A stretch of 27,780 nucleotides of DNA, from positions 1 to 27,780 of IMG/VR virus record IMGVR_UViG_3300020185_003175. One strand, written 5' to 3'. The first letter of the stretch is position 1; every line of letters begins with the position of its first letter. Origin of the DNA: a virus. The notes beneath the pieces are model-generated. The model saw nothing but the letters and a program-made list of their open reading frames with translations, did not search any database and was not told the DNA's origin. Below are positions 6,600 to 13,338 of this stretch, piece after piece. Position numbers and translations under genes: made by a program.

Positions 6600-6675
6600 T
6601 GGTGGAGACAGAGGGAATCGAACCCACGACCTTCTGGTTGCAAACCAGACGCTCTCCCTACTGAGCTATGCCCCC
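6600..6675 (-). tRNA. tRNA-Ala (UGC)
   Basis: Minus-strand cloverleaf of 76 nt. The acceptor stem is GGGGGCA paired with TGTCTCC (with G-U pairs), and CCA is encoded. The anticodon stem TCTGG/CCAGA closes the loop TTTGCAA with anticodon TGC, and the T arm contains GGTTCGATTCC. It is third in the tRNA cluster. Confidence 0.95.
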
Positions 6676-6682
6676 GAACCGT

Positions 6683-6904
6683 TTATCTTTCGCTTAATGC
6701 TTTAATATTAGCACTGATTCTAGCACTGTTCTTAGCAATATTGTCACTTAGTTGTTTCGCATTCTTCTGAATGTTTGCACTAATTTGTTCTGCGTTTCTC
6801 ATTACGTTGTCACCAACGTCTTCGAACCAAAACTTATTTGCTGGTGCTTTTTTTGTAACTTTTTTTGCTACTTTTTTTGTTGCCTTTATTTTTTCTTTAA
6901 CCAT
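6683..6904 (-). CDS. small lysine-rich protein with 11-residue repeats
   Basis: A 73-aa protein lying between two tRNA genes. The start is supported by AGGAAG 8 nt upstream. The first 21 residues are a basic, histone-tail-like tract (KATKKVAKKVTKKAP). After KFWFEDVGDNVMR the rest is three tandem 11-mers, NAEQISANIQK, NAKQLSDNIAK and NSARISANIKA, which should form an amphipathic helix. An 11-residue period fits a right-handed coiled coil or a surface-lying helix. I do not recognise a family. DNA or RNA binding by the basic tail with self-association by the helix is a guess. Confidence 0.75.
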   Translation of the reverse strand: MVKEKIKATKKVAKKVTKKAPANKFWFEDVGDNVMRNAEQISANIQKNAKQLSDNIAKNSARISANIKALSER

Positions 6905-6955
6905 CTTATGTACTTCCTGTTACATTCGTAACAATGCCTACGAACTGTTCGTAGT

Positions 6956-7030
6956 TGGAGCGGGTAGTCGGAATCGAACCGACATCCAAACGTTGGCAAC
7001 GTCTTGTAATAACCGTTATACTATACTCGC
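6956..7030 (-). tRNA. tRNA-Gly (GCC)
   Basis: Minus-strand cloverleaf of 75 nt. Anticodon stem AGACG/CGTTT closes the loop TTGCCAA, anticodon GCC. The T arm has GTCGGTTCGATTCCGAC, and CCA is encoded after discriminator T. The acceptor stem GCGAGTA/TACCCGC has one A-C mismatch at the fourth pair, which may lower stability or may reflect divergence. Confidence 0.9.
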
Positions 7031-7081
7031 AAATTACTTGTGTATATTTACCACTTAGAGTTTTGTGGTGTTCTGAAATAG

Positions 7082-7171
7082 TGGCGGAGAGTGAGGGATT
7101 CGAACCCTCGATACAGTTACCCATATACCTCCTTAGCAGGGAGGCGCTTTCGACCACTCAGCCAACTCTCC
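7082..7171 (-). tRNA. tRNA-Ser (GCU)
   Basis: Minus-strand cloverleaf of 90 nt with the long variable arm of class II tRNAs. The acceptor stem GGAGAGT/ACTCTCC is perfect, the anticodon loop is CTGCTAA with anticodon GCT, the T arm has GAGGGTTCGAATCCCTC, and CCA is encoded after discriminator G. It is the first gene after the promoter at 7184-7212. Confidence 0.95.
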
Positions 7172-8274: not shown

Positions 8275-9672
8275 ATGGATTATTTCTATGACGCACAGTT
8301 AAGAAGATACTTACTACAGTTCATGAGAATATTCAGTGGCTTTCAGGTTGCAGAAGGTGTACGCAACGGAACCACAAATTACAATAAAGTACCTGTTAGA
8401 TATGCAGACATGCAACGTATGGTTGCACACATACTAACAAAAGGTTCAGAGAATATGGTTAACAGCACACCGTTTTTGTCTTGTAACGTTACAAGTTTAC
8501 TTGTTGCTAGAGATAGAACACAAGACCCAATGCTTGTTAGCAAAGTACAAGTTGCTGAAAGACAATTCGACACCGGTAGTGCAACATATGGTTCAGAACA
8601 ATTTCCAGGCAACTTGTATTCAACAGACAGATATATGCCTGTGCCTTACAACTTAACAATGAACGTTGATGTATGGAGTGGTAACACAGATCAAAAACTA
8701 CAATTACTAGAACAAATTTTAATTTTATTTAATCCTAGTATACAACTACAGCAAGGAGATAATCCGTTAGACTGGACAAGTTTATACGAAGTAGAGTTAA
8801 CAGACATACAGTGGAGTAACAGAAGTGTACCTGCAGGCGTTGACGAAACGATTGATGTTGCTACATTGACCTTTATACTTCCCATATGGCTAAGTCCGCC
8901 TGCGAAAGTTAAAAGACAAAAAATTATTAATACTATTATAACAAATATTTATGATACAGGTAGTATCGGTGATTTAGAATACGACGACGACCTATATGAC
9001 TTCTTTAGATCATTGGAGTCGGACTTTGAATTACATACAATATCGCCCAATAACTACGAAGTTGAACTTGTTGGTGCCGAGGCAAAGTTATACAAAGACG
9101 GTGGCAGTGCAGAAGCAAATTGGAACGACTTACTAGAAGTTCTGTCTCCACAAGGCTCAGGTACAGCAAATGCAAATATAAGCATAGACGATATACCGCT
9201 AACAACAGCAAGTACATTACAACTTAACATATCAAATAATGTAGACAACGAAACTACATTAATAACAGGCTTAGTATCTAGAAATAGTTTAGACTCGTCT
9301 AAACTAGTATTCAATCTAGACGTAGATACTTTACCTTCAACAACACTAACAGACGTAACAAGAATTGTTGATGCTTCTAAAAACTATCCAGGTGACGGTA
9401 CACTAGATGCTGTGGCTACTGGGCAACGTTATTTGCTCACATCTGAAATACAGGGAAATCAATGGGGCATTACGGCAAACACAAACGACATTATCGAATA
9501 TAACGGCACAGGATGGGTAATATCATTTAATGCTTCTACATCACTTAATCAAGAAAGTATTCAATATGTTAAAAACTTATACACAAACAAACAATACAAA
9601 TGGGAAAACGTCCAATGGACAAGCACATACGAAGGGAAGTACAACCCAGGGTTCTGGCGTCTAAACGTTTAG
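8275..9672 (+). CDS. 15: T4-like gp15 tail sheath stabiliser and completion protein
   Basis: The 465-aa protein starts DYFYDAQLRRYLLQFMRIFS, which aligns with the T4 gp15 N-terminus (YFYNSSFRRYATLMGDLFS). It continues with a VPVRYADMQRMVAHIL block matching the T4 VPITYASKEHFMMKL block, and LTFILPIWLSPPAKVKR near residue 200 matches the gp15 WSLTFEVNGWMYPP region. gp15 caps the tail tube and sheath and joins the tail to the neck. T4 gp15 is 272 aa; here about 190 extra C-terminal residues follow the core, including TNDIIEYNGTGWVISF, an adhesin-like or decoration-like module. The extra region may add a domain that projects from the neck (inference). Confidence 0.85.
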   Translation: MDYFYDAQLRRYLLQFMRIFSGFQVAEGVRNGTTNYNKVPVRYADMQRMVAHILTKGSENMVNSTPFLSCNVTSLLVARDRTQDPMLVSKVQVAERQFDTGSATYGSEQFPGNLYSTDRYMPVPYNLTMNVDVWSGNTDQKLQLLEQILILFNPSIQLQQGDNPLDWTSLYEVELTDIQWSNRSVPAGVDETIDVATLTFILPIWLSPPAKVKRQKIINTIITNIYDTGSIGDLEYDDDLYDFFRSLESDFELHTISPNNYEVELVGAEAKLYKDGGSAEANWNDLLEVLSPQGSGTANANISIDDIPLTTASTLQLNISNNVDNETTLITGLVSRNSLDSSKLVFNLDVDTLPSTTLTDVTRIVDASKNYPGDGTLDAVATGQRYLLTSEIQGNQWGITANTNDIIEYNGTGWVISFNASTSLNQESIQYVKNLYTNKQYKWENVQWTSTYEGKYNPGFWRLNV

Positions 9673-9704
9673 ACAGCGAAAGCATACTTACTAAACTTAA
9701 CCCT

Positions 9705-10151
9705 ATGACCAACTTATCAAGACACAACGGAGTAAGTGCCGCCGGTGTTTTGTTTCTATCAAAGTCTACTGGCAGGTGTTTATTCCAATTACGCAATTCA
9801 GATAAGAAAGGAAAACATACTTGGGGGTTTTGGGGTGGCATGATGGATCCAGGTGAGACTACATACGACACCATACAACGTGAACTTAACGAAGAAATAG
9901 GTATTATTCCAGAACTAAAAAAGTTAAATCCCATTGATGTATACCAAAGTAAAGATAAAAACTTTATGTACTATAGTTTTGTGTACTTAGTTGACGATGA
10001 GTTTATTCCAACACTTAACGATGAAAGCGCCGGGTATGCTTGGGTAGACATTGGACAGTGGCCTAAGCCTTTACACTTTGGTGCAAAAATTACACTAGCC
10101 AGAAACAAAGGCATTAATAAACTACATACTATCCTAAACCTCAATTCCTGA
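9705..10151 (+). CDS. Nudix hydrolase
   Basis: The Nudix box GX5EX7REUXEEXGU is complete: G-MMDPG-E-TTYDTIQ-RELNEEIGI, so Mg2+-dependent hydrolysis of a nucleoside diphosphate linked to another group is expected. The substrate cannot be told; nucleotide sanitation or NAD/ADP-ribose turnover are common phage uses. The frame is open back to ATG 9600, inside the 3' end of gp15. I prefer ATG 9705 (148 aa) because the fold starts just after it (GVSAAGVLFL) and the upstream 35 residues are encoded mostly by DNA that codes for gp15. Neither start has a good Shine-Dalgarno, so translation is probably coupled to gp15. Confidence 0.85.
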   Translation: MTNLSRHNGVSAAGVLFLSKSTGRCLFQLRNSDKKGKHTWGFWGGMMDPGETTYDTIQRELNEEIGIIPELKKLNPIDVYQSKDKNFMYYSFVYLVDDEFIPTLNDESAGYAWVDIGQWPKPLHFGAKITLARNKGINKLHTILNLNS

Positions 10152-12860: not shown

Positions 12861-12888
12861 AAAAAAAAAGCACACCGTAGTGTGCTTT
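12861..12888 (-). terminator. rho-independent terminator of the curli-like operon
   Basis: On the minus strand GCACAC-TACG-GTGTGC forms a 6-bp stem closed by a UACG tetraloop (UNCG type), extended by AAA/TTT and followed by nine T. It lies 3 nt after the stop of the frameshift reading frame (12891) and ends the operon begun at 18696. Confidence 0.9.
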
Positions 12889-12890
12889 CT

Positions 12891-13285
12891 TTATTCGCAT
12901 TCCTTAGGGTTTTTTGAACAGTACTTCATGATACTTTTAACTAAAAATTTCATGTCTTGTTCTGAAATTTCTTCATCTGCCTTCCTAGACGATGAAGATG
13001 TTACTTTCCCTCAGGTTTTTCTTCTTTTTGCAATTCGTCGGTTTGTTTATCAATTTCTGTAGAAACAGTATCAATTACGCCTCCAGCCGCCGTAGCCGCT
13101 GTTGCTGTAATACTAGATACATCTGTTAAAACTGCTTGACTTACTGTCGAAACAGCATTAACGGATCCATCTACTACGCCTGTTGTAAACTCTTTACCGC
13201 CTTCAATAACTGCGCCAACTGATGCACATGAAGGTAAGAAAAGAACAAAACCGAGGAATGCTGTTATAGATAAAAATCTAGTCAT
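12891..13285 (-). CDS. small lipoprotein; zero-frame 94 aa (stop at 13001) or 131 aa by candidate -1 frameshift
   Basis: The zero-frame product (13285-13001, 94 aa) has a lipoprotein signal peptide ending LPSC, Cys20 being the lipid-bearing residue. The mature part is rich in Ala, Val, Ser and Thr (VGAVIEGGKEFTTGVVDGSV), resembling small outer-membrane lipoproteins, and has a charged tail. A strong Shine-Dalgarno AGGAGA lies 5 nt upstream. The zero frame ends GAG GGA AAG TAA. GGGAAAG is a classical -1 slippery heptamer; slipping there enters a frame of 37 more residues (VTSSSSRK through SKNPKECE) ending at TAA 12891. A perfect 8-bp hairpin follows 5 nt after the heptamer. The extension is acidic then basic with two Cys. 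Function is unknown; a spanin-like or curli-accessory lipoprotein is possible. Confidence 0.75.
12970..13010 (-). promoter_or_regulatory. candidate -1 programmed ribosomal frameshift signal
   Basis: Minus strand: slippery GGGAAAG (13010-13004) in zero frame G GGA AAG, directly followed by the TAA stop (13003-13001). After a 5-nt spacer (TAACA) comes the stem TCTTCATC (12998-12991), a 13-nt loop and GATGAAGA (12977-12970). The heptamer is the one I remember from the lambda G-GT frameshift. All three standard parts are present with usual spacing. Confidence 0.65.
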
Positions 13286-13330
13286 AACATTCTCCTGTTT
13301 AATGTAAAGTGAATATCTCTTTACAGTGTT

Positions 13331-13338
13331 TATTTATG
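13331..13338 (-). promoter_or_regulatory. T4-type late promoter motif CATAAATA for the lipoprotein
   Basis: CATAAATA on the minus strand, 45 nt before the lipoprotein ATG at 13285. Here the leader is long enough to hold the AGGAGA Shine-Dalgarno, in contrast to the genes whose promoter touches the ATG. It would give extra late expression of the last gene of the operon. Confidence 0.5.

Follow-up and report, generated by a model that had tools for sequence, protein, structure and literature searches.

The locus described here raises the question of whether a small lipoprotein gene of a T4-like virus is translated into one protein or into two. The window, i.e., the whole stretch of DNA that was analysed, is IMG/VR virus record G000 (27,780 bases), which carries T4-like tail genes (gp15) and a curli cluster. 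An earlier note on this DNA had claimed that the zero frame of the lipoprotein gene ends G GGA AAG TAA, with GGGAAAG adjoining the stop, that a 5-nt spacer is followed by an 8-bp stem with a 13-nt loop, and that the -1 frame is open for 37 residues, ending 3 nt before the terminator. All these elements were confirmed in the minus-strand ORF at 13285-13001, whose last codons are GAG GGA AAG TAA, and immediately downstream of it (Table 1).

Table 1. Features of the lipoprotein gene and of its putative frameshift site in the window.
Feature	Position	Strand	Detail	Evidence
Zero-frame lipoprotein, 94 aa	13001..13285	-	Lipobox LPSC, Cys20
Shine-Dalgarno AGGAG of the lipoprotein	13292..13296	-		Sequence
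T4-type late-promoter-like element CATAAATA	13331..13338	-	53 nt upstream of start codon
Slippery heptamer G_GGA_AAG	13004..13010	-	X_XXY_YYZ register	Sequence and relatives
Zero-frame stop TAA	13001..13003	-	Abuts the heptamer	Sequence
Putative stimulator hairpin, 8-bp stem TCTTCATC/GATGAAGA	12970..12998	-	5-nt spacer TAACA; arms TCTTCATC 12998-12991 and GATGAAGA 12977-12970, 13-nt loop between	Folding; kept in L003, L036 and L006
-1 frame tail, 37 codons and stop	12891..13004	-	Translation VTSSSSRKADEEISEQDMKFLVKSIMKYCSKNPKECE; TAA stop 12893-12891, 3 nt ahead of the terminator hairpin	Sequence; pN/pS
Conserved tail end DMKFLVKSIMKYCSKNPKECE	12894..12956	-	Helix-NP turn-helix, two Cys	Alignment; AlphaFold2
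Predicted tail peptides			YCSKNPKECE, LLEAMMLYCSEFPQK
Intrinsic terminator AAGCACAC-TACG-GTGTGCTT, then T run	12861..12887	-	Hairpin 12887-12868	Sequence

The features that define a -1 programmed ribosomal frameshift signal were found together at this site: a slippery heptamer in the X_XXY_YYZ register of the zero frame, a potentially stimulatory RNA structure 5 nt downstream (within the usual 5-9 nt), and a peptide under selection in the -1 frame. The 66 nt containing the hairpin fold at -16.5 kcal/mol versus -7.5 kcal/mol for shuffled sequences (z -4.15, 0/200 shuffles), and RNAfold also predicted partial pairing within the 13-nt loop, giving a longer bulged stem. The heptamer of the bacteriophage lambda G/GT genes is likewise GGGAAAG. 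When 64 heptamers were combined with stimulators in E. coli, the highest efficiencies were those of CCCAAAG, GGGAAAG and AAAAAAG (PMC4066793). Judging from sequence comparison, we assign a probability of about 0.93 to a programmed -1 frameshift that extends the lipoprotein into a second form. The two forms may be made in a fixed ratio, as the earlier note had proposed.

Relatives were collected from viral contigs in seven protein scans and in one search by DNA pattern, which was directed at the tail motif alone and was blind to the heptamer. Removal of duplicates reduced 322 loci to 100 distinct sequences from viral metagenome contigs, the window among them. At 60% zero-frame identity these formed 14 clusters and, therefore, the census is not a single lineage counted repeatedly. 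A heptamer in the slippery register was present in 97 of the 100, either A_AAA_AAG (80; 53 at -7 and 27 at -10 from the zero-frame stop) or G_GGA_AAG (17, all at -7), and in these 97 it ended 0 or 1 codon ahead of the stop. In all 97 heptamer-bearing relatives the -1 frame continued as an open tail, 31-71 codons long with a median of 39, compared with a median of 9 open codons in the +1 frame at the same sites. Heptamer and -1 frame, whose joint retention among homologous loci the earlier note had proposed to check, were thus kept together in these 97. The -1 tail was closed by the motif YC..xP..C in 95 of the 100 distinct relatives; a further one, L283, has FC instead of YC. Across 17 representative tails, C, N, P, E and C were invariant. 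When the search started from the tail, without use of the heptamer, it led to the lipoprotein and the heptamer in all complete cases except L220 and L246. Since the whole arrangement recurs in 97/100 distinct relatives it is not a product of chance, and its conservation in nearly all of the 100 makes it very probable that two protein forms are made on purpose. No match to the fused protein was obtained among the cultured phages in INPHARED, and no cellular relative was found in the GTDB contigs scanned.

Frame breaks at runs of G or A are generally common, and an ordinary frameshift mutation or an assembly error could have split a once-fused gene. We give practically no credence to this explanation. 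A reading error, which the earlier note had named as a possible refutation, is excluded for this record because an identical contig, L002, came from another metagenome and a further one, L003, has the same site at 98% identity. In addition, the same split was present in 97 of the 100 relatives, and no plain in-frame fusion was found among them.

Judged by pN/pS, purifying selection acts on the tails solely in the -1 frame. In five clades the values were 0.25, 0.29, 0.26, 0.34 and 0.27 in this frame versus 0.67-3.99 in the two other frames, where stop codons occurred throughout; for the window-type tail, 0.27 in the -1 frame compares with 3.99 and 1.17. A pN/pS comparison with the zero-frame body was set aside, since the stretches in question had been paired with no alignment across indels. 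These data bear on the proposal that frameshifting is real but mainly regulatory, with ribosomes that have shifted reaching the terminator and so affecting read-through or message life, and with the tail peptide being of minor importance. The tail does end at or inside the terminator in several clades, as would suit such a role. However, the selection on its amino acids, its almost invariant end motif, its prediction as a confident helical hairpin and the fact that it is still selected in another frame in L253 and L254 all argue against this proposal, which we consider quite improbable.

Codon choice at the site was also compared with that of the same genes. The last slippery codon was AAG in 97/97 cases versus 85 of the 436 Lys codons elsewhere, and the Pro codon preceding A_AAA_AAG was CCA in 44/44 versus 29/104 elsewhere, both counts being drawn from related sequences that are not independent events. 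On a 64-sequence tree, the forks of which are weakly resolved, the heptamer class (sequence and position) changed about nine times, and GGGAAAG and AAAAAAG interchanged between relatives that were 82-85% alike in the zero frame. The slippery sequence appears to have been switched several times, the tail being retained throughout. Neither the keeping of a heptamer nor the swapping of two equally slippery sequences would have any reason if the tail were a separate small ORF, translated by re-initiation after the lipoprotein stop. The stop and the tail do overlap closely, like coupled genes, and an in-frame ATG, GTG or TTG at least 8 codons before the motif was present in 37 of the 97 tails, 16 of them with a Shine-Dalgarno-like 4-mer. 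However, the other 60 tails have no possible start at least 8 codons ahead of the motif, and L006 has ATT where the window tail has its ATG (at D-M-K). Re-initiation is, on this evidence, very unlikely.

As regards the structure downstream of the heptamer, the type of stem differs between clades. In the A_AAA_AAG GAC TAA clade the stem starts 6 nt past the heptamer, with 91.9% of cells paired; three of its pairs changed on both sides, no slid version exceeded 58%, and its covariation score was reached by 0/500 shuffles. At the level of the alignment these compensatory changes are clear. In the clade with the longest tails the closing stem has 11 bp, starts 6 nt past the heptamer and seems to enclose a three-way junction. 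With the loop cut out for the count this stem is 99.3% paired, but its covariation is thin, as both sides have changed in only one pair. Over the 97 sites, the 88 nt downstream had a mean z of -2.3 and the 88 nt upstream one of -1.0, so the upstream region also folds somewhat better than shuffles, which counts against the frameshift explanation. With respect to an upstream Shine-Dalgarno stimulator, AGGAG-like sequences were seen by eye in some relatives; the element is absent from the window and is not conserved.

The retention of the downstream stems at frameshift spacing argues as well against transcriptional slippage, in which RNA polymerase would slip on the A run and yield mRNAs with the tail in frame. 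The AAAAAAG sites carry 6 or 7 A in a run, which speaks for this mechanism, but known runs are longer (A >7, cited in PMC3711429) and 17 of the 97 sites, that of the window among them, are GGGAAAG with just three consecutive A. Slippage of the polymerase is thus highly improbable, and a shift by the ribosome is the preferred reading.

The earlier note had counted as a refutation any relative that keeps the lipoprotein while losing the heptamer or the -1 frame. Such cases amounted to 3 of the 100: L021, which is without both, and L253 and L254 (the same contigs as L220 and L246), where the tail has moved. In L021, T_AAA_CAG replaces A_AAA_AAG and the terminator comes immediately in place of the tail; heptamer and tail were lost together. 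In L253 and L254 the zero frame ends GAA GAA AAG AAG TAG; no canonical heptamer is present, the tail lies in the +1/-2 frame, and their tails differ by 6.0 synonymous changes per 31.8 sites and 5.0 nonsynonymous changes per 145.2. Since they keep a selected tail without the canonical heptamer, the tail must be reached there in another way; our guess is that tRNA-Lys slips by -2, from AAG to AAA, which would give the frame of the tail. Finally, L185, L187 and L189 have the same lipoprotein and GGGAAAG site followed by an unrelated 41-residue -1 tail, also with two Cys, in what is an apparent tail swap.

The curli cluster of the window (18026-10790, minus strand) comprises CsgF, CsgG, two curlin-repeat proteins, a FecR protein and a CHASE2 adenylate cyclase. 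Its CsgF-CsgG-curlin-FecR-curlin-cyclase order is the same as that of HTVC008M, Melnitz and uncultured pelagiphage curli (PMC9599517, PMC7029224, PMC9004378), and those papers mention neither the lipoprotein nor a frameshift. Upstream of csgF, at 18618-18023 (minus strand), the window encodes two small proteins (98 and 99 aa) in both of which a single N-terminal membrane helix is recognisable by eye; this pair, possibly holin-like, is kept in Melnitz and HTVC008M.

In the window and many relatives the lipoprotein gene separates the second curlin gene from that of the CHASE2 cyclase, and in other marine myophages it follows a DNA polymerase, major capsid or gp32-like gene (gene names by eye). 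Melnitz and HTVC008M have the curli cluster, from which the lipoprotein is absent. A role confined to curli was considered and rejected, as many relatives adjoin the three latter genes; likewise, a search for membership of the curli (T8SS) system gave no Csg match and many relatives lie far from curli genes. An ATAAATA core was present 20-110 nt upstream of the gene in 74/91 relatives versus 6.4 expected, and in 50/59 versus 5.2 expected in a shuffle-based count. This core is not enriched across the window as a whole, and the proposal of a late promoter is based on its position upstream of the gene in relatives. A terminator frequently follows the gene in relatives. The scattered locations, together with the gene's own promoter core and terminator, indicate a late, mostly single-gene cassette rather than a curli component, and the gene behaves, in these sequences, as a roaming cassette with a T4-type late promoter. 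The operon of which the earlier note had spoken was not upheld: the gene carries a late-promoter-like element and a terminator of its own, and is often alone, distant from the curli cluster. The comparison of relatives, then, documents at the sequence level the register of the heptamer, selected coding in the -1 frame, a downstream structure that is kept, and independence from curli genes; we infer ribosomal slippage and its efficiency, lipidation, outer-membrane placing, the disulfide and the use of the protein.

The zero-frame product has the signal of a bacterial lipoprotein (LPSC, VGC or QGC) with a Cys that is invariant in the alignments by eye, and lipidation is predicted. After Cys20, the translation and AlphaFold2 give a long Ala/Val/Thr-rich helix and then a charged linker. 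Body and tail were folded separately with AlphaFold2: the body was predicted, at low confidence (pLDDT 61), as one long helix, and the tail as two helices, a long one followed by a short one, joined by an NP turn, its last 20 residues reaching pLDDT 93-96. Because two Cys flank the turn of this model, a disulfide at the tail tip would be likely in the periplasm. When compared with o-spanins, the lipoprotein and the late promoter fit; the neighbours vary from locus to locus, and no i-spanin partner was identified.

According to the mechanism that we propose, a late-expressed cassette of marine T4-like phages would yield two forms of an envelope lipoprotein. Translation would mostly terminate just past the heptamer, giving the short form, a lipid-anchored long helix. 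Some ribosomes would slip by -1 on G_GGA_AAG (A_AAA_AAG in most relatives), aided by a hairpin or junction 5-7 nt downstream, and would append the tail, with its helical hairpin of two cysteines at the end. The likeliest use would be a mixed array in the infected cell's envelope, in which plain helical lipoproteins outnumber copies with a binding tip, as gpG outnumbers gpGT. We advance this specific role, a mixed array with a binding-tip minority, only tentatively. Late expression would point toward lysis, virion release or superinfection blocking, all three of which fit. It is possible, if rather doubtful, that these genes constitute a widespread family of phage lipoproteins whose disulfide-tipped share of envelope-anchored helices is set by frameshifting, with a dosage like that of lambda G/GT, in the control of lysis or superinfection, from a free-standing cassette, one branch having apparently switched to -2/+1 while keeping the tip.

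Several known systems are comparable. In lambda G/GT, -1 frameshifting leads to an excess of short copies over those that bear a C-terminal extension (PMC5009743). The lipoprotein gene is alike in frame direction, logic and heptamer. However, it has a lipobox, lies outside the tail-gene order and has a clear downstream stem. Moreover, it matched no family of tail chaperones: Pfam gave no hit, the PHROG hits were weak and of unassigned function, and the gene is found in curli clusters or varied places instead of before a tape measure gene. The dnaX gene of E. coli uses A_AAA_AAG, as do most relatives, also with a downstream hairpin (PMC3711429); there, frameshifting yields the shorter product and is stimulated by a Shine-Dalgarno upstream, whereas in the lipoprotein gene the product is longer. 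Among the stimulators of IS911/IS3 type, that of IS911 is described as a three-way junction that a long-range stem closes (PMC5009743), to which the stimulator of one lipoprotein clade looks similar, but the gene is unrelated to the lipoprotein, and sequence and branch lengths differ. Gene 10 of T7/T3 and the coat and tail proteins of a Listeria phage also provide two products sharing the N-terminus (PMC5009743); those are virion proteins, unlike the product studied here, which has a lipoprotein signal.

No description of frameshifting in a phage lipoprotein was found in the open-licence papers searched. Frameshifting by -1 is itself known, and its use in a lipoprotein gene appears to be undescribed. 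The well-studied cases in phages are mostly tail chaperones and virion proteins, whereas the lipoprotein represents a non-tail gene family, present in many marine metagenomes and with very strong comparative support. As ordinary gene calling would list the short form only, the tail domain stays hidden. The natural variants (GGGAAAG or AAAAAAG, two stop distances, several stem types) offer a set of sites for the requirements of bacterial frameshifting, and the lipoprotein gives a concrete handle on the unexplained envelope biology of marine T4-like phages.

Other features of the window were also recorded. On the plus strand, a Nudix-like ORF (9600-10151) overlaps by 73 nt the end of the gp15 tail-sheath stabiliser gene (8275-9672). 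On the minus strand, three tRNA genes (Ala, Gly and Ser) are located at 6600-7171, and two adjacent paralogues with a radical-SAM-like CxxxCxxC, alike over most of their length, at 5828-2138. Two long, repeat-rich, fibre-like proteins are encoded at 22289-19089 and 27754-22427, also on the minus strand, and share a nearly identical C-terminal domain (DSHSGTITPS.DNSIDLGSGSLRYNEV.AVTFQGTAS).
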